NCBI RefSeq assembly: GCF_002101375.1
Contig: NZ_CP015207.1
Coordinates: 1,790,001 to 1,854,000 of the forward strand
Reading direction: 5' to 3'
Length of the DNA stretch: 64,000 bases
From: Sporosarcina ureae
GTDB lineage: Bacteria; Bacillota; Bacilli; Bacillales_A; Planococcaceae
In this document: in pieces, positions 34,452-45,329 of the stretch
Numbering within the stretch: the first letter of the stretch is position 1
Layout: every line of letters begins with the position of its first letter
The notes under the pieces: model-generated
Told to the model about the DNA's origin: nothing
The model's database searches: none
The model's input: only the letters and a program-made list of their open reading frames with translations
Position numbers and translations under genes: made by a program

Positions 34452-35942
34452 TTACTGCTTCATATTCACGAATACACTTTTCACTTCCGTGTAATTCGCT
34501 AAACCATATTCTCCGCCCATTTCGCGGCCAATACCCGATTGCTTATAACCACCGAATGGCATAGTCTCCCACTCAAGGCCGAAGTCATTTATCCAGACAG
34601 TACCAGACTGCAACTTGCTTGCGATATAATGTGCTTTTTTGACATTTTCTGTCCACACACTTGCCGCCAAGCCATATTCACTATCATTAGCACGCTGAAT
34701 TGCTTCTTCTACTGTATCAAAGACGAATAGTGATAAAACAGGACCAAAGATTTCTTCACGAGCGATTGTCATATCATCTTTCACATCTGCAAACACGGTG
34801 GGTTGTACGAAGAAACCTTTTTCATGCGCTTTTTCGCCTCCAGCTACTAGACGTGCACCTTCTTCTTTACCTTTTTGGATATATTCCAATACCGTTTTCT
34901 GTTGCTTAGCAGATACGAGCGGGCCCATTTCCGTAGATGGATCCATTCCTGGTCCTACTTTTAACGCTTTCGCTTTAGTAGCTAACGCTTCAACAAATTG
35001 ATCATACAAGCTGCGATGGATATACGCGCGAGTACATGCACTACAGTTTTGTCCATGATTGTACATAGTTCCTGCAAATACACCTTCGATAGCTTCTTCC
35101 ACATCTGCATCTTCCAATACGATAGAAGGTGATTTCCCACCAAGTTCAAGTGTGATGCCTTTCATCTGATCTGCAGCAGACTTCATTACTTGTTTCCCTA
35201 CTGCAGTAGATCCTGTAAATGCTACCTTGTCTACCTTTTCATGTGTGATTAAAGCATTACCTGCTACACTTCCGGCACCTGGTAATACGTTAACAACGCC
35301 GTCCGGGAAGCCGGCTTCTTTAAATAGGCGAGCTGCATAAAGTAACGATAATGGTGTTTCACTTGCTGGTTTGATAACTACTGTACAGCCTACTGCGAGC
35401 GCAGATCCAAGTTTCCATGCCGCCATTGCTAGAGGGAAATTCCAAGGAATTACTTGCCCTACCACACCAACTGGCTCATGCACGATATAGTTAAGGTAGT
35501 CAGGAGATACTTGAACAGTTTGTCCAGTAATCTTTGTTGCCCAGCCTGCATAGTAACGGAAATGCTGTACAGTACCGTCTACGTCGTCAGCCAATGCCAC
35601 TTCGTATGGTTTGCCGTTGTCTAATGCTTCAAGCTGTGCCAGTTCTTCACGATTCTCGTCAAGTAAATCTGCAAACTTGTAGATCAAATGAGAACGTGTT
35701 GCCGCGTCCATCTTTGTCCATTCCCCTTCATCGAATGCTTTACGAGCAGCTTCCACCGCCGTATCGACATCTTCGGGCTGTGCTTCACTTACTTTGGCGA
35801 TGACTTCTTCCGTTGCAGGATCAACTACATCAAAAGTTTTCCCGCTTTTCGCTTCTACATACTCTCCATTAATATAGAGTCCTTTTGTATGTTGTAAAAA
35901 TTCCTTTACTTTAGGTTTTAGATCATAATTTACTTTCAGCAT
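34452..35942 (-). CDS. Aldehyde dehydrogenase, probable alpha-ketoglutarate semialdehyde dehydrogenase
   Basis: 496 residues, a full NAD(P)-dependent ALDH: PWNFPLAMAAWK, cofactor motif FTGSTAVGKQV, glutamate in LELGGKSPS (about 267) and nucleophile Cys in NHGQNCSACTR (about 301). On sequence alone the substrate would be open. Its place as the last gene of the hydroxyproline operon, overlapping the DapA-like deaminase gene by 20 bases, assigns it to oxidation of 2,5-dioxopentanoate to alpha-ketoglutarate (inference). The start is ATG with GGAGG nine bases before it. Confidence 0.88.
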   Translation of the reverse strand: MLKVNYDLKPKVKEFLQHTKGLYINGEYVEAKSGKTFDVVDPATEEVIAKVSEAQPEDVDTAVEAARKAFDEGEWTKMDAATRSHLIYKFADLLDENREELAQLEALDNGKPYEVALADDVDGTVQHFRYYAGWATKITGQTVQVSPDYLNYIVHEPVGVVGQVIPWNFPLAMAAWKLGSALAVGCTVVIKPASETPLSLLYAARLFKEAGFPDGVVNVLPGAGSVAGNALITHEKVDKVAFTGSTAVGKQVMKSAADQMKGITLELGGKSPSIVLEDADVEEAIEGVFAGTMYNHGQNCSACTRAYIHRSLYDQFVEALATKAKALKVGPGMDPSTEMGPLVSAKQQKTVLEYIQKGKEEGARLVAGGEKAHEKGFFVQPTVFADVKDDMTIAREEIFGPVLSLFVFDTVEEAIQRANDSEYGLAASVWTENVKKAHYIASKLQSGTVWINDFGLEWETMPFGGYKQSGIGREMGGEYGLANYTEVKSVFVNMKQ

Positions 35943-36852
35943 TCGTTACTACCTCCAATTCTTTTTTCAGTACGCCTAATCCATCCATCAAATCTTTAAG
36001 TTTTTGGTCTTCTTCTTCATTTAATGGCAGACGTGGCAGACGGCAAGGTCCTCCTGCACAACCTTTAAGCTCCATTGCGCGTTTTGCGATTTGTACATAT
36101 TTACCCGAACCTTCAAGGAACTCACATAGAGGCAATAATTCATCGTATAACTTCCACGCTTCATCCATATTTCCATCCTGCAAGGCATTATACAATTTCA
36201 TCACATGACCCGGTACGATGTTTCCTGAAACGGAAATCCATCCTGTTGCACCAACTAAGAATGATTCAATCGCCAAGTCTTCTGAACCACAGAATACTTT
36301 TAGGAACCCTTCGCCTTGACGTGCAATATCGCGAGCTTTACCGATTCCACCGCTAGACTCTTTGATATGTGTAATATTTTCTACATCGCGACCCACACGC
36401 AAAATCGTTTCTGTGCTGATGTCTACGCCAGATGTGAACGGGTTGTTGTAAATCATAACCGGTATTTTAACGGATTCAGCTACCGCTTTGAAGTGTTCGT
36501 AGATTTCATCCTCTTTTGGATGAGCATAATAAGAGTTAATCAATAATGCTGTGTGTGCACCTGCTTTTTCTGCCTGCTGTGTGTATTCAATTGCATCCGC
36601 TGTTGTTTCAGCCGCTGTACCCACGATCAACGGAACGCGGCCATTGATTTGTTCCACTGCTACTTCTACTGCTTTGAAACGCTCTTCTTTTGTTAAACTT
36701 ACGAATTCTCCTGTACTTCCGTTAATCGCAATTCCATTAACGCCTTCTCCAATAAAATGCTCAATATTATTACGGAACCCGTCCCAATCAATCTCTTTCT
36801 GATTTAACATCGGTGTTACCAATACTGGAAAGATACCTTTTACTTCTGTCAT
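35923..36852 (-). CDS. DapA-family lyase, probable pyrroline-4-hydroxy-2-carboxylate deaminase
   Basis: 309-residue TIM-barrel of the DHDPS/N-acetylneuraminate lyase family. Schiff-base Lys164 in THIKESSG and Tyr135 in IYNNP are present, with INGSTGE near the N-terminus. In hydroxyproline degradation this enzyme deaminates and dehydrates Delta1-pyrroline-4-hydroxy-2-carboxylate to alpha-ketoglutarate semialdehyde; a house-keeping dihydrodipicolinate synthase is less likely given the neighbours. ATG 36852 follows TTGGAGG. A C-terminal KGCAGGPCR Cys pair is unusual. Confidence 0.85.
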   Translation of the reverse strand: MTEVKGIFPVLVTPMLNQKEIDWDGFRNNIEHFIGEGVNGIAINGSTGEFVSLTKEERFKAVEVAVEQINGRVPLIVGTAAETTADAIEYTQQAEKAGAHTALLINSYYAHPKEDEIYEHFKAVAESVKIPVMIYNNPFTSGVDISTETILRVGRDVENITHIKESSGGIGKARDIARQGEGFLKVFCGSEDLAIESFLVGATGWISVSGNIVPGHVMKLYNALQDGNMDEAWKLYDELLPLCEFLEGSGKYVQIAKRAMELKGCAGGPCRLPRLPLNEEEDQKLKDLMDGLGVLKKELEVVTNAESKL

Positions 36853-36875
36853 TTTAAATTCCTCCAATTAGTGTT

Positions 36876-38321
36876 TTAGTTAGTTACATTTCCTATTTCA
36901 CTTACATTACTTACGCTACTAGCTTCGCTTTCAAGCTCTTGCGTGTGCTCGCCAGGCTGGGTCCGCCAAATAAATTTGCCTGTAAACCCGTAAATAAGCG
37001 AGATAATGATGACTAAAAAGTTAAACCATAAGAATGGTAAATAACTCATCGTGGATACTCCGAGTGCTGCGGCCATGAATACGCCGCCATCCGACCAGGG
37101 AACCATAGCCGTAGTGACTGTTCCACCGGCTTCGGAGTTTCTTGACAGCACCCTGCGGTCGATATTCAATTTATCATAATTTTCTCCAGTAATTTTAGTG
37201 GCCGTAATCAATGAAACATAAGCTCCACCAAATGCGTTACCGAGAAGTCCAGCTAACATCGTGGTTACCGTTGCTTTACCGGGATTGTTTGCCCATTTGC
37301 CAAGGTAATTCCCTACTGCACGCAATACACCAATTCGTTCCATTAATCCGCCTACACCTAGAGCAAAAATGATCAATGCGATTACGTCTAGCATAAACAC
37401 AATTCCGCCTCGATTTAATAAATTATCGATAAACGGTACGCCTGATTCAATCGTGTTACCCGCATACATAATATTGAATGCCTCGAGGAACGTCGCGCCT
37501 TGGAACAAAAATGCCCAGATTGTTCCTAAAAATGCACCGAACAAAATAACGGGAATTGAGGGCATTTTGAATACCAATAATAAAATGACAACTCCTGCTG
37601 GAATCAACATAAACCAGCTAATATTGAAATACTCTTCCAAAGAATCCATTGTGTTCAAGGCAGCTGATAGGTCTCCGTTCCCTTTGTAGAAAAGTCCTAC
37701 AATTAAGAACAAGACAGCTGAAATTATCCACGCTGGCAGTGCGACGGTAAACATCGACTTAATATGATCGATAAGATCAACCTTTGACAGTGAGGCTGTC
37801 ATAACCGTTGTGTCAGAAAGCGGTGACATTTTATCCCCTACATAACAACCCGAAATAACAGCACCTGCAACGAGCGGTAATGGGAATCCAAAACTTGCAC
37901 CAATCGCCATCATGGCAATACCAGCTGTACCTGCCGATCCAAATGAAGTTCCTGTAGCAATCGAGGTTACTGTACAAATAATGAAAGCCGCCAATAAGAA
38001 AATACTTGGGTTAATGACTGATAATCCGTAATAGATAATCGAGGGGACAATACCGCCCGCTATCCAGGTACCTATTAACGCACCGACCGAAGTCAGGACG
38101 ATGACAGCTTCCAGACCATCATTTACACCATTCAATAAACCATCCTGCATTTGCTTATAGCTATAACCAATCTTTAATCCTAAGCCTATAATTAGGAACC
38201 AAGTCGTCAATAGAGCCAGATGAATGGAAATGCCGAATACGACAATAAATGTCACCATAATTGCTCCAAATCCGATCAGCACAAACAATACTTCGGCCAA
38301 GCTGGGTAATCTCTTCTCCAT
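36876..38321 (-). CDS. NhaC-family Na+/H+ antiporter-like transporter
   Basis: 481 residues, about 11-12 membrane helices. Carries NhaC features such as GTSFGSAGTAGIAMMAIG and the GDKMSPLSDTTVM signature. NhaC proteins exchange Na+ and H+, and some branches carry organic acids or amino acids. Placed inside the hydroxyproline operon with 23-35 bp gaps on both sides, it probably imports the amino acid or a related compound (inference). The short acidic C-terminal tail is cytoplasmic. Confidence 0.85.
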   Translation of the reverse strand: MEKRLPSLAEVLFVLIGFGAIMVTFIVVFGISIHLALLTTWFLIIGLGLKIGYSYKQMQDGLLNGVNDGLEAVIVLTSVGALIGTWIAGGIVPSIIYYGLSVINPSIFLLAAFIICTVTSIATGTSFGSAGTAGIAMMAIGASFGFPLPLVAGAVISGCYVGDKMSPLSDTTVMTASLSKVDLIDHIKSMFTVALPAWIISAVLFLIVGLFYKGNGDLSAALNTMDSLEEYFNISWFMLIPAGVVILLLVFKMPSIPVILFGAFLGTIWAFLFQGATFLEAFNIMYAGNTIESGVPFIDNLLNRGGIVFMLDVIALIIFALGVGGLMERIGVLRAVGNYLGKWANNPGKATVTTMLAGLLGNAFGGAYVSLITATKITGENYDKLNIDRRVLSRNSEAGGTVTTAMVPWSDGGVFMAAALGVSTMSYLPFLWFNFLVIIISLIYGFTGKFIWRTQPGEHTQELESEASSVSNVSEIGNVTN

Positions 38322-38356: not shown

Positions 38357-39262
38357 TTAAGCTAAGATAAATCCTTTTGGTAATGGATCTTCAGGGTCAA
38401 GAATGAATTCATGCGAACCTGTTATGTAAGGCACGCCCTCCACCGAGAATATTCCCCTATCGCCTGGCACAGATTGAACCTCAATCTTGCTTTCGAATAT
38501 ACTCTGGTTGCTCAATGATTTTATAGTGCGCTGCTCTTTCACCGCCAAAGCGATGGTACTTTCTATGCCTGGCGAGCGTAAAATATAGCCGTCCTGTTCA
38601 AATGTAACCGATCGATACTCATGATCTGCAAGTTGCTCCTGTAAGATAATGCCGTCAAAAGCTTTCCGTTGTGACTTCAGCTCTTTTACCTTTACTGCTC
38701 CCCACTCCATAATCTCTGATAGCTGTCCCAATTGAAGAGATTCAATAATAGTAGGCAACGGATACACATAGAACCTGTGACCACTTGGTAGCTCCACATA
38801 AGAAGCCTCTGAATCACTCTCCAGCATTTTTCCTTCTGCTACTTCCATCTTGACAGCGGTTACTTCCTGTTGCTCTACCGACACTTTTACATGCCATATA
38901 CCGTGAACGGTTTCCACCGTATATTGCCCATCGTTCTTCTGTTGCAAATGCCCTATTTCAAGCAATCCCCCAGTAGTGGCAAGAAGTGCTTCGTATTTAA
39001 AGTCGATCGCTTGCTGATGATGAAGAAACAACAACTGATAATCCGCTGCGGCTGAAGGACCTACAATACAACCGTTCATTCCACGGTGTCCGCGGGGTTC
39101 GTTCAATAGTAAATTCTTTTCGGCTTCAAAGTGACTTTCTAACTTCTTTTGATTACTTTGTATATCCAGGCCTTCAAAGTAAAAAGGTGAATGCACTATA
39201 ATACGGTACGCCTCTCCAAATACTTGTGTATCCATCGTACGGAACATCTTTTGTAGAATCAT
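38357..39262 (-). CDS. Proline racemase-family paralogue lacking both catalytic cysteines
   Basis: 301 residues. It aligns along its whole length with the neighbouring epimerase, including the invariant NEPRGH (residues 54-59) and the C-terminal FILDPEDPLPKGFIL region. At the first catalytic site, where the epimerase has MCGH, this protein has FKYE (Lys89 in place of Cys). At the second, RSPCGTGT is RSPGIEST (Gly233). Even trans-3-hydroxyproline dehydratases keep the first Cys, so the usual chemistry seems impossible. The frame is intact and the gene has a place in the operon between epimerase and transporter, arguing for a retained non-racemase role. Confidence 0.85.
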   Translation of the reverse strand: MILQKMFRTMDTQVFGEAYRIIVHSPFYFEGLDIQSNQKKLESHFEAEKNLLLNEPRGHRGMNGCIVGPSAAADYQLLFLHHQQAIDFKYEALLATTGGLLEIGHLQQKNDGQYTVETVHGIWHVKVSVEQQEVTAVKMEVAEGKMLESDSEASYVELPSGHRFYVYPLPTIIESLQLGQLSEIMEWGAVKVKELKSQRKAFDGIILQEQLADHEYRSVTFEQDGYILRSPGIESTIALAVKEQRTIKSLSNQSIFESKIEVQSVPGDRGIFSVEGVPYITGSHEFILDPEDPLPKGFILA

Positions 39263-39277
39263 TCAGTTTTCCCACCT

Positions 39278-40297
39278 TCAATGATCCATTGGCGGAATGA
39301 GAAGGTACCCTTCCCGCAGAGGATCTTTTTCGTTGTAGTAAAAGCGGTGCATTCCCATGATCCATGCAGAGCCGGTTACCTCAGGAATGACTCCAGCAAC
39401 ACCGCCTACTGTTATTTCTTCTAGAATGCGCGCTGTAAATAATGTCCCGACAATACTTTCATAAACAAAACGTTCATCTACTTTCAACTCATTTTTACTA
39501 TGCAATGTCGCGAGTTTAGCAGAAGTTCCTGTACCACACGGTGAACGGTCGATGCCGCCAGGAGGTACAATGACCGTATTTTTTAAATCCGCTTCTGGAT
39601 GAGTAGGATCAGTATAAAATTCGATATGTGTCAACCCATTAATGAAAGGAAACTCCGGATGAATAATTTCCTGTGTTGCATTGATTGCGTTGCGAATCTT
39701 AATTCCTTTACTGATAAGTGATGCCCCATTTTCTTCATTCAGCTGAAGGTCTAGCGTACGGGCGTCAATAATGCCATAGAAGTTACCACCGTAAGCGATT
39801 TCGCAAATGACATGACCTACATCCTCTACGTCCAACTCCACTGTTTTTAATAAGAAAGAAGGAACATTGACGAACGTAACTTCCTTCGCCACGCCTTTTT
39901 CTACTTTTACGGTAACATCCACTAAACCCGCCGGTGTATCTACTTTGATCATGGTATAGGGCTCTTTCACTTCTATCATGCCGGTTTCAATCAACGCGGT
40001 GCAAAAACCAATCGTGTCATGACCACACATTGGCAAGTAGCCCCCCGTTTCAATATAAATGACACCCACATCTGCATCGGGATGACAGGGGTCCGTCATA
40101 ATTGCACCTGACATAACACCATGTCCACGCGGTTCATTCATGAGGAACATTCGTATCCAGTCGTACTCTTTCTGCATGTATAGCATTTTTTCCGACATCG
40201 TATTGCCCTGCAAAGGGGGCATGCCACTAATCAGCGTACGGGTTGGATTGCCTCCGGTGTGCGTATCTAACGTCGTAAACACTCGTTGGTACTTCAT
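39278..40297 (-). CDS. 4-Hydroxyproline 2-epimerase (proline racemase family)
   Basis: 339 residues. Both catalytic cysteines are present: Cys91 in MCGH and Cys254 in DRSPCGTGT. This pair does the 1,1-proton transfer that turns trans-4-hydroxy-L-proline into cis-4-hydroxy-D-proline. The neighbours (D-hydroxyproline dehydrogenase, DapA-like deaminase, ALDH) decide for this activity over proline racemase. The start overlaps the upstream oxidoreductase gene by 71 bases; an adjacent TTG at 40300 is an alternative, as AGGGG is eight bases before it. Confidence 0.9.
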   Translation of the reverse strand: MKYQRVFTTLDTHTGGNPTRTLISGMPPLQGNTMSEKMLYMQKEYDWIRMFLMNEPRGHGVMSGAIMTDPCHPDADVGVIYIETGGYLPMCGHDTIGFCTALIETGMIEVKEPYTMIKVDTPAGLVDVTVKVEKGVAKEVTFVNVPSFLLKTVELDVEDVGHVICEIAYGGNFYGIIDARTLDLQLNEENGASLISKGIKIRNAINATQEIIHPEFPFINGLTHIEFYTDPTHPEADLKNTVIVPPGGIDRSPCGTGTSAKLATLHSKNELKVDERFVYESIVGTLFTARILEEITVGGVAGVIPEVTGSAWIMGMHRFYYNEKDPLREGYLLIPPMDH

Positions 40298-41477
40298 CAA
40301 TGCACAACCCCTGTCGAAAACGAACGAGACTCAACGGTTCAATCGGTATGCACGTTTCCTTATCGTTCAGCATTTCTTCTATTAACTTTCCTGTAACCGC
40401 CGCTAGGCTAATTCCATCACCTTCATGACCCGCCGCAATATAATAGCCAGGGATATGTTCGACTCTTGAGATAATCGGCAAATGGTCTTCTGTCCATGGC
40501 CGTAAGCCTGCATACGTACGAATGACAGTCATATCGGCCATCTGAGGATAAAAGCGCAATGCGCGTTTGGCGATTTGACGAATCACTTTATAGTCTACTT
40601 TTGTATTGAAGCCGACAAATTCACGACTGCTGCCAATCAAAAAGTTCTGCGCTTCCGTCGGTTCAAAGACAAGCGCTACACCATACTTTTCCGTCAGCGG
40701 ATCCACTGAACGTTCACCGCCGAACTTCGAGATTAAATAACCGAACTCCATAACTTTCCGTAATCCCACAGGCTGTTGTCTCGATGCGACAATTAATTGA
40801 CCTTTCCTAGGTACAATTGGGATATCCAGATCTAGCATTTGTCCAATTAACGGTGCCCAAACACCTGCTGCATTCACTACACGCTTGGCAGTGAATTGTC
40901 CGTTTGTCGTCTCTAGTAAGAACTCACCTGAAACATTCCGTGACATATTCGTTACTTCCGTGTTTTTATGAATGATCGCTCCTTGCTTTTCAGCACTGTG
41001 GAACATGGAAAATGTCATCATATAGGGATTAACAGTGGAATCCGTCTTGCATTCCAATCCACCGTATAAATCATCTGCAAAATATTTTGATTCATTTCGT
41101 AAGTCTTGACGATCTAGCATCTTGAAGCTTAAGCCCGCTTCTACTTGCTTTGACACCCATTGATTTGCAGCTTCCATCTCTGCATCATTCTCACAAACTA
41201 AAATACTTCCTGGATTGCGATATTCAAATGAAAGCTCCAAATCTTTATCTAATTGATGAACCAATTCCTGACTTTTCAAAGACATTTGACTGTCGAAACC
41301 GGGATCTTTATCAATCGCCAGTATATTTCCATCACATTTTGAGGAAGTGCCACTCGCTAGTTCGTTCTTTTCAAGCACTGTAATCTCCAAGCCCGCTTTA
41401 GAACCGTAGTACGCAATGGCGGCTCCCATAATTCCCCCACCAATTACAACGATATCGCTATGTTGTATTCCTTTCAC
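40227..41477 (-). CDS. D-hydroxyproline dehydrogenase beta-like FAD subunit (DAO family)
   Basis: 416 residues. FAD motif DIVVIGGGIMGAAIAYYGS at the N-terminus and C-terminal GLRPWTEDHLPIISR and GHEGDGISLAAVTG of the D-amino acid oxidase/sarcosine oxidase beta family. It should oxidise cis-4-hydroxy-D-proline together with the alpha and iron-sulfur subunits encoded across the regulator gene. GTG 41477 is the start: it has GAGGAGG six bases upstream, and the longer frame runs through the sigma-54 promoter at 41517-41533. First gene of the minus-strand operon. Confidence 0.88.
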   Translation of the reverse strand: MKGIQHSDIVVIGGGIMGAAIAYYGSKAGLEITVLEKNELASGTSSKCDGNILAIDKDPGFDSQMSLKSQELVHQLDKDLELSFEYRNPGSILVCENDAEMEAANQWVSKQVEAGLSFKMLDRQDLRNESKYFADDLYGGLECKTDSTVNPYMMTFSMFHSAEKQGAIIHKNTEVTNMSRNVSGEFLLETTNGQFTAKRVVNAAGVWAPLIGQMLDLDIPIVPRKGQLIVASRQQPVGLRKVMEFGYLISKFGGERSVDPLTEKYGVALVFEPTEAQNFLIGSSREFVGFNTKVDYKVIRQIAKRALRFYPQMADMTVIRTYAGLRPWTEDHLPIISRVEHIPGYYIAAGHEGDGISLAAVTGKLIEEMLNDKETCIPIEPLSLVRFRQGLCIDEVPTSVYDVRYAHRRQSNPYAD

Positions 41478-41516
41478 AGGAATCCTCCTCTCGATTGCCT
41501 TTTCACTTTTATATAA

Positions 41517-41533
41517 TGCAAGAACCATGCCAA
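41517..41533 (-). promoter_or_regulatory. Sigma-54 (-24/-12) promoter of the minus-strand hydroxyproline operon
   Basis: On the minus strand TTGGCATGGTTCTTGCA: GG (41531-41530) and GC (41519-41518) separated by exactly ten bases, the sigma-54 rule. It is nearly identical to the promoter at 43460-43476 on the other side of the regulator gene. Confidence 0.85.
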
Positions 41534-41587
41534 CTTTATAATCCAACATTTATGTGACAGTTTATTAACCATAAAAACCCTAATGTA

Positions 41588-41708: not shown

Positions 41709-41726
41709 GACATTGGAGTGACCAAA

Positions 41727-43448
41727 ATGTTGAAATACATTCACGATTTCATTACAGATATTATGAAAAAAGACTTTCTCATTGTGAACGGAAACACAAG
41801 CGAGGAAATGATTAAACAATATATGACAAACTCTCCATCTACACAGCTGTTTATTAAACAAGCACAATACTACCTACATGTACGCTTGCACAAAAATCAA
41901 CTCCGTTACGAAAATTCACCGATCCTATCTTTAGGTATTCCAATCAGTGAAGTATCCAAGAAGTTTTCCCATGTTGAATTCTTATTATGTCGTGATGCGC
42001 AAGGTGAAATTACAGGTTATATAAAAGCTGAACAATTCATTGATAAGTTGATAGAACAACACGAAAAGACATTGGCGTATTTGCAGACCGTCCTTCATAC
42101 AATCGACGAATCTTGCACCGTGATTGATCAAGATGCCAATGTATTGTACTGGACCAAAGGAGCGGAGTCTTTATTCTCTCTCAAAGAAAAAGACGTAATA
42201 GGTAAACCCATTACAGACTTTTTTGATACGAAGCACTTGGAGATACTACACACGTTACAAAATGGATCCTCAGTGCGTCATTCGCAACATCATGCACGCA
42301 AGGATCTCGTAGTGCTAATCAACTCCAACCCTATTTATCACAGGGATCGTATAATTGGCGCCGTCGTATCAGAAACCGATATAACAAGCCAGATCCGAAT
42401 GAATGATGAGTTGTACGCGACTTCCGAGAAACTGTTCTTGCTTGAAGAAGAGGTACGGAAAAGTGCATCTAACCATAATCCTTTCGATTATATAAAAGGA
42501 AACAGCGATAAACTCAAGCAGACAATCAACATGACTAAAAAGGCGGCTACTACGGATGCCAGCATTTTGCTGTACGGAGAGAGCGGTGTAGGAAAGGAAC
42601 TGTTCGCTAAAGCGATCCATAATTTAAGAGAGTCGCAGAACGCACCATTCGTCGCCATAAACTGTGGAGCAATACCTGAGAGCCTATTTGAAAGTGAAAT
42701 ATTCGGTTATGAAAAGGGAGCTTTTTCAGGCGCTGACCAGCGCGGGAAAAAGGGAAAGATTGAATTAGCCAGAGGTGGTACTCTTCTATTAGATGAAGTA
42801 GGAGAAATGCCACTCGATATGCAAGTGAAATTCCTCCGGGTCCTCCAAGAGCGTAGATACTATTCAGTGGGTGGTACAAAAGAGATTGAGGCTGACTTTC
42901 GCATTGTCGCCGCCACCAACCGCGATTTAAGGGAGCTTGTAAGCGAAGGTTCTTTTAGGGAAGACTTGTATTATCGCCTGAATGTTGTCAACGTGAAAAT
43001 CCCTGCACTGCGCGAACGGGCGGAGGATATCATAGAGCTGACCCATTACTTCCTTTATGAATTCTCCATTAAGTACAACCGGCAGATCAATAGTATTTCG
43101 CAAGTAGTTATGCAAGCGCTTCTCCAACATAACTGGCCGGGGAATATTCGGGAACTCCGTAACGCTATTGAACGCCTAGTCGTATTCTCTGATAAAGGTC
43201 TCGTCAATGTTCAAGACCTCCCCCCTGAAGTCATTGAAAATACCAACTCACTGGCTGTGGCCAATATGACGAAACCTGTTCAAACAGAAAGTGCGCCACT
43301 CACAGAACAGATGCAGAACTTTGAACGCAAGTTGATTGTACAGGAGTTGGAAAAGGCAAACGGAAATAAATTACAGTGTGCAAAAAACCTAGAAATCACC
43401 CGTGCCACTTTGTACAATAAAATGCACAAATTAGACATACCTTTCTAA
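41727..43448 (+). CDS. Sigma-54-dependent transcriptional activator with PAS domain (PrdR/RocR-like)
   Basis: 573 residues. An uncharacterised N-terminal sensor region (1-110), a PAS domain (about 115-225), a sigma-54 AAA+ domain (about 250-480) with Walker A GESGVGKE (about 283), the loop GAFSGA (about 331) that contacts sigma-54, Walker B GGTLLLDEVGE, and a Fis-type HTH at the end (NKLQCAKNLEITRATLYNKM). It lies between the two operons with -24/-12 promoters and should activate both in response to hydroxyproline or a derivative. ATG 41727 follows TTGGAG. Confidence 0.92.
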   Translation: MLKYIHDFITDIMKKDFLIVNGNTSEEMIKQYMTNSPSTQLFIKQAQYYLHVRLHKNQLRYENSPILSLGIPISEVSKKFSHVEFLLCRDAQGEITGYIKAEQFIDKLIEQHEKTLAYLQTVLHTIDESCTVIDQDANVLYWTKGAESLFSLKEKDVIGKPITDFFDTKHLEILHTLQNGSSVRHSQHHARKDLVVLINSNPIYHRDRIIGAVVSETDITSQIRMNDELYATSEKLFLLEEEVRKSASNHNPFDYIKGNSDKLKQTINMTKKAATTDASILLYGESGVGKELFAKAIHNLRESQNAPFVAINCGAIPESLFESEIFGYEKGAFSGADQRGKKGKIELARGGTLLLDEVGEMPLDMQVKFLRVLQERRYYSVGGTKEIEADFRIVAATNRDLRELVSEGSFREDLYYRLNVVNVKIPALRERAEDIIELTHYFLYEFSIKYNRQINSISQVVMQALLQHNWPGNIRELRNAIERLVVFSDKGLVNVQDLPPEVIENTNSLAVANMTKPVQTESAPLTEQMQNFERKLIVQELEKANGNKLQCAKNLEITRATLYNKMHKLDIPF

Positions 43449-43459
43449 AACTTCTTTCA

Positions 43460-43476
43460 TTGGCATGATTCTTGCA
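43460..43476 (+). promoter_or_regulatory. Sigma-54 (-24/-12) promoter of the plus-strand hydroxyproline operon
   Basis: TTGGCATGATTCTTGCA with GG (43462-43463) and GC (43474-43475) ten bases apart. Differs by one base from the minus-strand promoter at 41517-41533. Lies 38 bp before the first gene. Confidence 0.85.
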
Positions 43477-43514: not shown

Positions 43515-43784
43515 ATGTCCGAAAAAGATATAATTATTTGCAGATGCGAAGAAGTTACTTACTCCGATTTAAAAGAAACAGCCAAAAGATTTCAATGCAC
43601 ACCGAGAGAACTTAAATTACGTACGCGTGCAGGTATGGGCTATTGCGGAGGAAGAACTTGCCGCAACGCCGTAGACAGCATAGCGCTTGAAAGTACAGAA
43701 CGGGATGAATCACAAATCACATTAAAATATCAACCTCCAATCAGACCCGTAAGTTTCAGCAAATTAGGGGAGGTTTTCGAATGA
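43515..43784 (+). CDS. BFD-like [2Fe-2S] protein of the D-hydroxyproline dehydrogenase
   Basis: 89 residues. Four cysteines in the BFD pattern: CRCEEV at the start and GYCGGRTC later (C-x-C ... C-x4-C), which hold a [2Fe-2S] cluster. In related amino acid dehydrogenases (HcnB, OoxA, sarcosine oxidase alpha) this domain is usually the C-terminal part of the larger FAD subunit; here it is a separate gene. AAGGAG precedes the ATG, and its stop overlaps the next start by four bases. Confidence 0.85.
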   Translation: MSEKDIIICRCEEVTYSDLKETAKRFQCTPRELKLRTRAGMGYCGGRTCRNAVDSIALESTERDESQITLKYQPPIRPVSFSKLGEVFE

Positions 43785-44122
43785 GTCAGCGAATTGTAAA
43801 CCACCCAGTACTCGGAACACTAGACGAATCACAAAGCATCACATTTACATTCGACGATGTAGAATACAAAGCGCTTCATGACGAATCAATTGCCGCTGCC
43901 CTGCTGGCTAACGGTATTAGAACGTTGCGCCATCACGAAGAAAGCGGTTCTCCTAGAGGCATTTACTGCAATATTGGTCACTGCTTTGAATGCCGAGTAA
44001 CCGTAGACGGTGTACAAGGTGAACGAGCATGTCTAACACCGATCAAACAAGGAATGCGGGTCGTAAGCGGTGGTAAATTACTGACAGACGTACGTGATTG
44101 GAGGGCCAATCATGGAAAATAA
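43781..44122 (+). CDS. [2Fe-2S] ferredoxin-like gamma subunit of D-hydroxyproline dehydrogenase
   Basis: 113 residues, Fer2_4 fold. Cluster cysteines lie in GIYCNIGHCFECRV and GERACLTP. This small subunit passes electrons between the FAD sites in HcnA/OoxC-type complexes. It overlaps the preceding gene by four bases (ATGA) and the following one by 11, so the three are co-translated. Stoichiometric production with the two FAD subunits is expected. Confidence 0.88.
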   Translation: MSQRIVNHPVLGTLDESQSITFTFDDVEYKALHDESIAAALLANGIRTLRHHEESGSPRGIYCNIGHCFECRVTVDGVQGERACLTPIKQGMRVVSGGKLLTDVRDWRANHGK

Positions 44123-45329
44123 AACCATAATTATTGGCGCGGGACCAGCCGGATTAACTGCGGCCATCACGATTGCATCACGCGGTCACAGTGTACTAGT
44201 TATCGACGAATATATGAAACCGGGTGGACGATTACTCGGTCAGCTATACGAAGAGCCTAATGGTAACTGGTGGAACGGTATCGTAGAATCCAACAAACTA
44301 CATCAACAGGCTAAGGAACTGGGTGTCGATATTAAGCTACACACACCCGTCTCCAACATCGAGTTGCAGGACGGAATTTGGAGCGTCCATACAGATGTAG
44401 ACATTTATGAAACTACTCATTTATTGCTGGCGACAGGGGCCGCGGAAAGTCCTCTTCCCATTAAAGGTTGGACGCTTCCGGGAGTCATGTCAGTCGGAGC
44501 TGCACAAGTTATGACCAACGTGCATCGCGTAAAACCCGGAGATCGTGGAGTCATTATCGGTGTGAATGTCTTATCATCTGCAATTGCAATGGAACTGAAA
44601 ATGGCAGATATTGACATCGCTTGTATTACATTGCCCGTTTCCAATACCGTAAATGAAAAGTTCGGACAGCCACTAGAAGTTATGAACTCACTTCTGCATG
44701 TTTCACATATGGCTCCTTCTGCATTTATTAAAATGGGAAGTAAACTGATGAAAAATGACTTTTTCAAACAACTTGGTATTACATTCTTTCCTAAAAATGG
44801 TGTGAAAATGTGGGATATACCGATTATGTTACGAAAAGCAGTTACTGAAATCATTGGCGATGAACAAGTCGAAGGTGTGAAAATCTCTACGATTAATGCA
44901 GCCGGTGAAGTGATTCCTGGCACTGAAGAGGTTATTGGAGCGGATTTCGTATGTATAGCGGGTGGTTTGTATCCTCTAGCGGAATTGGCAGCTGTCGCTG
45001 GATGTCCTTTCTATCACATAGAAGAACTTGGTGGATATGTCCCATTGCATAACGAACGCATGGAATCCACCCTTCCCGGGCTTTATGTTGCGGGGAACAT
45101 CACGGGTATTGAAGGAGCTAAAGTTGCCATGAGTCAAGGGCAAACTGCGGGTCTCTCTATTGTCAACAACTTGGAGAATGGCACACTGGAAAATGACTTA
45201 ATTTCCTCGATACAGGATACTGAGCATACGAGAGAGAATGCCTATATTCAATTTCATCCTGAAATCGGTCATGGTAAGAATAAGCTTCAGAAGTATTGGG
45301 ATGAATACCATGCAGCGGTGACAACATAA
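44112..45329 (+). CDS. D-hydroxyproline dehydrogenase alpha-like FAD/NAD(P) subunit
   Basis: 405 residues. Dinucleotide-binding motifs TIIIGAGPAGLTAAI (N-terminus) and GDRGVIIGVNVLSSA (about 150), and the GLYVAGNITGIEGAKVAMSQ near the end typical of the HcnB/OoxA pyridine-nucleotide-disulfide oxidoreductase family. It lacks the C-terminal BFD domain, which is instead encoded by the first gene of this operon. ATG 44112 follows TTGGAGGG. Partner of the beta-like subunit encoded at 40227-41477. Confidence 0.87.
   Translation: MENKTIIIGAGPAGLTAAITIASRGHSVLVIDEYMKPGGRLLGQLYEEPNGNWWNGIVESNKLHQQAKELGVDIKLHTPVSNIELQDGIWSVHTDVDIYETTHLLLATGAAESPLPIKGWTLPGVMSVGAAQVMTNVHRVKPGDRGVIIGVNVLSSAIAMELKMADIDIACITLPVSNTVNEKFGQPLEVMNSLLHVSHMAPSAFIKMGSKLMKNDFFKQLGITFFPKNGVKMWDIPIMLRKAVTEIIGDEQVEGVKISTINAAGEVIPGTEEVIGADFVCIAGGLYPLAELAAVAGCPFYHIEELGGYVPLHNERMESTLPGLYVAGNITGIEGAKVAMSQGQTAGLSIVNNLENGTLENDLISSIQDTEHTRENAYIQFHPEIGHGKNKLQKYWDEYHAAVTT

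Follow-up and report, generated by a model that had tools for sequence, protein, structure and literature searches.

A cysteine-less member of the proline racemase superfamily encoded beside the probable 4-hydroxyproline epimerase of Sporosarcina ureae and its relatives

The probable 4-hydroxyproline 2-epimerase gene of Sporosarcina ureae (EPI) is followed by a gene for a second protein of the proline racemase superfamily, here called PARA, in which both catalytic cysteines are replaced. In the genomes of the bacterial family that were searched, the two genes occur together and side by side, and PARA is maintained by purifying selection. The explanation that we place first, at somewhat less than an even chance, is that PARA is a pseudo-racemase retained to serve the epimerase as a dedicated partner.

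The window, that is, the whole stretch of DNA analysed, is 64,000 nucleotides long (contig NZ_CP015207.1, positions 1,790,001 to 1,854,000). The features considered here are the following.

34452..35942, minus strand: aldehyde dehydrogenase, probable 2-oxoglutarate semialdehyde dehydrogenase (ORF, profiles; substrate from pathway knowledge)
35923..36867, minus strand: DHDPS-family protein, probable pyrroline-4-hydroxy-2-carboxylate deaminase (ORF, profiles; function from pathway knowledge)
36876..38321, minus strand: NhaC-type antiporter or transporter (TIGR00931, 486 bits, cut-off 370)
38357..39262, minus strand: PARA, cysteine-less proline-racemase-superfamily protein of 301 aa (ORF, Pfam, pairwise alignment, AlphaFold model, structure searches)
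39278..40297, minus strand: EPI, probable 4-hydroxyproline 2-epimerase with both cysteines, MCGH and DRSPCGTG intact (ORF, Pfam, NCBIfam, sequence)
40227..41549, minus strand: FAD-dependent oxidoreductase, probable cis-4-hydroxy-D-proline dehydrogenase subunit (ORF, profiles; substrate from pathway context); the coordinates are those of the longest ORF, and the real start is probably further downstream
41517..41532, minus strand: -24/-12 (sigma-54) promoter-like element TGGCATGGTTCTTGCA before the operon of PARA (one mismatch)
41718..43448, plus strand: PrdR/SoxR-like sigma-54-dependent activator (best NCBIfam model TF_PrdR, below its cut-off)
43461..43476, plus strand: -24/-12 element TGGCATGATTCTTGCA before the 2Fe-2S and oxidoreductase genes (one mismatch)
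43781..44122, plus strand: 2Fe-2S protein (Fer2_4)
44094..45329, plus strand: FAD/NAD pyridine nucleotide-disulphide oxidoreductase (profile match)

On the minus strand the genes follow in the order FAD oxidoreductase, EPI, PARA, NhaC-type transporter, DHDPS-family protein, aldehyde dehydrogenase, whereas the sigma-54 activator, the 2Fe-2S protein and the FAD/NAD oxidoreductase form a divergent set. The locus has the divergent operons, the -24/-12 elements and the sigma-54 activator of a sox-type locus. Matches to the -24/-12 pattern with at most two mismatches are not above chance in the whole window (31 against 29.1 expected), and therefore the case for both elements is their position and mutual likeness. 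We take the gene layout, from established pathway knowledge, to be that of trans-4-hydroxy-L-proline catabolism. Proteins other than PARA look to cover every known step, from epimerase through dehydrogenase and deaminase to semialdehyde dehydrogenase, and the predicted pathway would be complete without it. The tight placement of PARA between epimerase and transporter, noted in the initial annotation, is seen in gaps of 15 nt and 35 nt, respectively.

The reading frame of PARA is open from ATG to stop, in agreement with the earlier description of a gene without frameshifts or stops. The protein aligns with EPI over the whole length (25% identity in 342 columns, E = 1e-14) and retains NEPRGH, again as first described. 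The Pro_racemase profile PF05544 scores 68.3 bits against a cut-off of 27. With the AlphaFold model (mean pLDDT 89.8, pTM 0.89), Foldseek gave a best E-value of 6e-22, and the closest solved structures are trans-3-hydroxyproline dehydratase, proline racemase and hydroxyproline epimerase. In VIA-align 2 the model is superimposed on the T. cruzi proline racemase 1w62 with Z 28.2 and rmsd 2.8 over 288 residues, and the top 19 rows (Z 26.5-28.2) are all proline racemases, hydroxyproline epimerases or trans-3-hydroxyproline dehydratases. Profile, comparison with its neighbour and modelled fold all place PARA in the proline racemase superfamily (PF05544, DapF-like fold).

PARA is similar to the 4-hydroxyproline 2-epimerases and proline racemases in its fold, the NEPRGH loop and the overall layout, but both catalytic cysteines, the ligands of the prolyl nitrogen and two glycines of the site are replaced, and it is shorter (301 aa against 339 aa in EPI). 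MCGH has become FKYE, with Lys89 at the position of the first catalytic cysteine, and DRSPCGTGT has become LRSPGIEST, with a glycine at the second. Both replacements had been recognised in the initial annotation; the glycine given there as residue 233 is residue 232 in the alignment numbering. Thus, where MCGH of a two-base enzyme carries Cys (or Ser) and DRSPCGxG carries Cys, PARA has Lys89 and Gly232, and Leu228 and Glu91 take the places of the Asp and His ligands of the prolyl nitrogen. The NCBIfam equivalog models score 53 and 28 bits against cut-offs of 540 and 550. Judged from its residues, PARA probably has no racemase activity.

Orthologues were sought in 261 genomes of the family; the order-level search also covered 261 genomes and gave the same 39 carriers. 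All 39 copies (E-value 3.1e-48 or better) are full-length open frames of 286-330 aa, and the signature of decay named in the initial annotation, scattered replacements with frequent truncation, was sought among them and not found. The next match has an E-value of 2.8e-21, and the two such matches that were read (L090, L094) are Cys/Cys proteins. EPI (1e-120 or better) is present in exactly these 39 of the 261 genomes, where it always adjoins PARA in the same order (30 loci read first and nine more after). The distinct EPI sequences examined retain MCGH and SPCGTG; the paralogue without catalytic residues is accompanied by a predicted active enzyme in 39 of 39 cases. With starts picked by script, 19 of 30 loci have a spacing of 0 or -4 nt, compared with 15 nt in the window. 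Copies from the family's other genera are 39-48% identical to PARA of the window. The GTDB contig collection gave one named match, in Sporosarcina sp. P34.

The 39 proteins represent 38 distinct sequences. Lys89 is present in all 38, and the second catalytic position is occupied by Gly (31), Ser (6) or Asn (1) and never by Cys; a first change so constant and a second position always free of Cys mean that the loss of cysteines goes beyond chance. An acidic residue two places past the second position is also present in all 38. Single exceptions elsewhere are Cys for Tyr90 and Ser for Pro231, in one sequence each. As to the question whether the Lys and Gly changes are conserved and always next to a catalytic epimerase, this holds for Lys89 within the family and for the Cys/Cys neighbour, but not for the glycine, nor for Lys89 in the sister clade described below, which has His.

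PARA is under purifying selection that is looser than that on EPI: in 15 close pairs, which share members and thus are not independent, dN/dS is 0.10-0.27 for PARA and 0-0.12 for EPI, and the former exceeds the latter in every pair. Together with the 39 full-length copies and the constant Lys89, this makes the proposed selection for a role other than two-cysteine racemisation well supported. In a tree of 63 rows, the PARA proteins of the family (clade A, 95/99) and a sister clade of four sequences (clade B, 97/92: G270, G408, a P. megaterium plasmid and a B. badius plasmid) are joined (91/91) and lie nearer to a second Cys/Cys branch than to EPI (100/100). For C, E and G148 the tree program issued long-branch warnings. 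Given this placement, PARA is a paralogue in the wide sense and probably not a tandem copy of EPI, an origin that was considered and is unsupported. Distances between PARA proteins correlate with those of the regulator ATPase domain (Spearman 0.857), of EPI (0.820) and of the N-terminal 120 residues of the regulator (0.626), and the ATPase domain correlates with EPI at 0.898. The PARA-EPI correlation was set aside as evidence of contact, as it is not specific to EPI.

When 398 genomes sampled evenly from the class were searched with PARA at 1e-30, 28 had matches, of which seven are PARA proper (five from the family, G270 and G408) and 21 are Cys/Cys proteins of another branch. EPI was found in 35 genomes of this sample, seven with PARA and 28 without it at 1e-30. 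The neighbourhood was examined in 14 of these 28. Six have a second racemase of the Cys/Cys type within the operon or next to it (G440, G591, G481, G342, G373, and G281, where an internal stop interrupts it); in two (G285, G404) EPI is immediately followed by one of the Ser/Gly type; one (G341) has a Glu/Cys copy several genes off, and one (G416) an eroded 248-aa protein between EPI and NhaC; in four (G358, G614, G519, G606) no second racemase was found in the stretch examined. A sample of 378 genomes of the phylum, searched at 1e-45, gave the window's own genome and no further PARA, and no further member was found at 1e-20 in 15 genomes of the order of G270. In viral contigs a primer-derived pattern had no matches, and none of 55 stretches with two short peptide patterns codes for a relative.

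Six plasmid records, five from P. megaterium and one from B. badius, contain PARA at 33-34% identity. On the two plasmids that were read, the regulator, the 2Fe-2S protein, the oxidoreductase, the dehydrogenase, EPI and PARA are all present, and PARA overlaps EPI by 1 and 4 nt. Downstream are NhaC, DHDPS and aldehyde dehydrogenase genes in B. badius and an APC permease in P. megaterium. The plasmid genes are annotated as proline racemase family proteins, and thus genes of this kind are liable to be counted as racemases. PARA adjoins EPI in the four clade B loci read. The clade B proteins have [L,V]HYG instead of FKYE and VRSPGF instead of LRSPGI, and lack His59 and Arg60.

The former active site is the best conserved part of clade A, with mean conservation 0.87 in 48 cleft positions, chosen by us from motifs, against 0.58 in the other 253; Lys89 and Glu91 are invariant in 29 aligned rows. 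Between clades the letters differ. The first cysteine position has Lys in clade A and His in all four clade B proteins; the position of the site histidine has Glu in A or Gly in B; the second cysteine position has Gly, Ser or Asn in A and Gly in B; and the position of the Asp that holds the prolyl nitrogen has Leu in A, Val in B and Thr in G148. Bulkier residues replace two glycines of the catalytic members: at 90 there is Tyr, with Cys in one row, and at 233 Ile, Val, Ala or Phe. The eroded G416 protein has the catalytic-site letters of neither clade. These changes fit a site that no longer serves racemisation. Since in clade B Lys89 is replaced by His and Glu91 by Gly, there is no single new catalytic residue common to the clades; Lys89 was ruled out as a universal one and kept as a candidate for clade A.

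All 41 EPI rows with PARA, and none of the 16 without, have Asn as the residue preceding EPRG; in the tree set this Asn is found in all 20 epimerases with a neighbour from clade A, B or C and in none of the 13 others. PARA itself has Asn at this place in 36 of 38 sequences of clade A, three of four of clade B and the one of clade C. This residue could mark an interface. However, the association comes from one supported independent pair (two on all branches), and is therefore explained equally well by shared ancestry. The epimerase of L168, which adjoins a Ser/Gly paralogue, has Leu at this place, whereas in G440 the Asn sits in the second racemase and the epimerase has Tyr.

The window locus resembles the sox locus of B. 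thuringiensis HD73 in its operon order and sigma-54 control, with PARA at the position of soxF. In PMC4941409, sigma-54 promoters are placed ahead of soxB and soxC, soxF (HD73_3144) is described as hypothetical and has the racemase gene soxE on one side and the DHDPS gene soxG on the other, the functions of soxI, soxH, soxG, soxF and soxE are stated as unknown, and the locus is tied to sarcosine, not hydroxyproline. For the counterpart in B. cereus ATCC 14579, Bc2832-2836, an eLife 2014 paper (PMC4113996) reports that the strain grows on trans-4-hydroxyproline, that the predicted epimerase and proximal enzymes are induced, and that epimerase-cluster proteins were insoluble and not purifiable; the latter were presumably of the Bc2835 kind. 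The primer list of that paper includes Bc2834, the gene in PARA's place. Read by eye, the 20 bases of its reverse primer, reverse-complemented, encode in one frame F-I-V-R-S-P-G, the motif of PARA, and the EPI peptides TDPCHP and DTPAGLV can be read from the Bc2835 primers. Thus PARA agrees with soxF and Bc2834 in position, and the comparison of sequence extends to this one 20-base primer. The same paper also notes clusters without one or both of the cysteines and a 4-hydroxyproline epimerase with a Ser/Cys pair, names Asp232 and His90 as ligands of the prolyl nitrogen (figure legend), and describes trans-3-hydroxyproline dehydratase as a one-base type of member. No paper characterising PARA is among the literature matches listed, whose coverage leaves out most subscription journals. 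Two inactive Cys/Cys proteins of B. anthracis (PMC1964878) were set aside as support: that paper gives them Tyr or His at R1, where EPI has Ser in our alignment, and thus they may not be orthologues of EPI.

If PARA is a dedicated partner of the epimerase, it would have lost two-base racemase chemistry, would be made together with EPI, encoded just upstream, and associate with it, and would stabilise, solubilise or allosterically tune it, by analogy with the dead paralogues of trypanosomatids. For trypanosomatid AdoMet decarboxylase and deoxyhypusine synthase, PMC5201418 and PMC3663545 report complex formation with, and activation by, such paralogues. As there, a paralogue without catalytic residues is kept with an active relative, and a partner role can be proposed for PARA; the trypanosomatid cases concern different enzymes, of eukaryotes, for which the complex is reported.

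Several observations count for the partner explanation. Firstly, PARA and EPI share their 39 genomes and are always adjacent. Secondly, the spacing of 0 or -4 nt in most of the loci measured and the overlaps on plasmids are as in co-translated subunits. Thirdly, the known steps of the pathway are covered without PARA, and four of the 14 related operons show no second racemase in the stretch examined. The differences in catalytic-site letters between clade A, clade B and the eroded protein, the bulky residues in place of the two glycines, and the distribution of the Asn before EPRG (20/20 against 0/13) point the same way, as does the insolubility of the B. cereus epimerase cluster, with Bc2834 in PARA's place (PMC4113996). 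On the other hand, a best-conserved cleft with invariant Lys89 and Glu91 is also expected of a remodelled active site, 28 of 35 genomes of the class sample have EPI without PARA, the Asn association has one supported independent pair and is at odds with L168 and G440, PARA distances follow EPI no more closely than they follow the regulator ATPase domain, and PARA groups with a branch other than EPI.

A more specific proposal, which we hold to be rather unlikely, is that the 4-hydroxyproline epimerase of such Bacilli is a hetero-oligomer in which the cysteine-less partner is needed for solubility or activity. It would account for the insolubility of the B. cereus cluster proteins when produced for assay. 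If a partner role were confirmed, a group of hydroxyproline epimerases would have been assayed minus half the enzyme, and the racemase fold would gain a hetero-oligomer; no description of a prozyme system in the PLP-independent racemase fold was found in the literature searched.

One alternative, in our estimate unlikely, is that PARA is a new one-base enzyme, in which Lys89, or His in clade B, would be the single general base or acid acting on a compound of the hydroxyproline pathway, for instance in tautomerisation or dehydration of a pyrroline intermediate. Both residues can act as a base and each is constant in its clade (38 of 38 distinct sequences, and four of four), Glu91 is invariant in the well-conserved cleft, and the trans-3-hydroxyproline dehydratase (PMC4113996) is a precedent in the superfamily, although it combines Cys or Ser with Thr, whereas here Lys or His is combined with Gly. 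However, no reaction is missing from the operon, the counterparts of Asp232 and His90 are Leu and Glu in clade A and Val and Gly in clade B, and bulky residues stand in for the two conserved glycines; none of these residues is retained in the eroded G416 protein, for which the case for homology is a short match. If this explanation is true, a Lys- or His-based activity is still to be discovered in a well-mapped pathway.

It is less probable still that PARA is a non-catalytic ligand binder, a sensor or sponge for a compound such as hydroxyproline or pyrrole-2-carboxylate, possibly feeding the sigma-54 regulator. The fold and the cleft are retained, and the distances of PARA agree with the regulator ATPase domain slightly better than with EPI. 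However, this correlation is general, since the ATPase domain also tracks EPI, and the N-terminal part of the regulator, which is likely to be its sensor, tracks PARA less well. The clade-specific residues of the pocket and the bulky groups in place of glycines speak against one common ligand.

Continued racemisation or epimerisation of a different substrate by Lys89 and another residue is very improbable: the Ser/Cys pair of one 4-hydroxyproline epimerase (PMC4113996) indicates that the catalytic pair is not rigid, but Gly or Asn at the second position in 32 of 38 distinct sequences provides no second base, and the ligands of the prolyl nitrogen are gone. A decaying duplicate, kept by chance or of recent origin, is hardly credible and was rejected, for although PARA evolves faster than EPI in all 15 close pairs and its second catalytic position is variable (Gly, Ser, Asn), all 39 frames are full-length, identity across other genera of the family is 39-48%, dN/dS is below 0.3, and Lys89 is universal among the distinct sequences.

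Other second racemases were noted in the operons examined. A second Cys/Cys branch with CGHG and RSPCGTG occurs in or near hydroxyproline clusters (L065/L089 of G440, L165, L166, L172, L174, L175, L090, L094, L097, L098), directly after the epimerase in G440; the three members scanned score below the NCBIfam cut-offs. In G285 and G404, Ser and Gly replace the two cysteines in proteins encoded directly after the epimerase (L168, 8197-9237, minus strand; L173, 9847-10890, plus strand), possibly a separate loss of the pair at the same operon position. The racemase-family protein of G341 (L164, 11248-12330, plus strand) reads MEGHD around the first cysteine position, which is Glu, and RSPCSSAI around the second. 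In the eroded G416 protein (L170, 8909-9652, minus strand) the N-terminal strand, NEPRG and the C-terminal motif are recognisable. It has no racemase match in Pfam or NCBIfam, and its homology follows from a 47-residue profile match (probability 87, E = 4e-6), position and motifs; its structure model was set aside (pLDDT 50).

The nearest DHDPS-family gene of the operon in G192 (L097, 12012-12905, plus strand) is 33% identical to the deaminase of the window, and thus a distant relative may have replaced the deaminase there. Much of the hydroxyproline operon is carried by large plasmids of P. megaterium and B. badius (L176, L177); given this location, the operon may move between strains or species.
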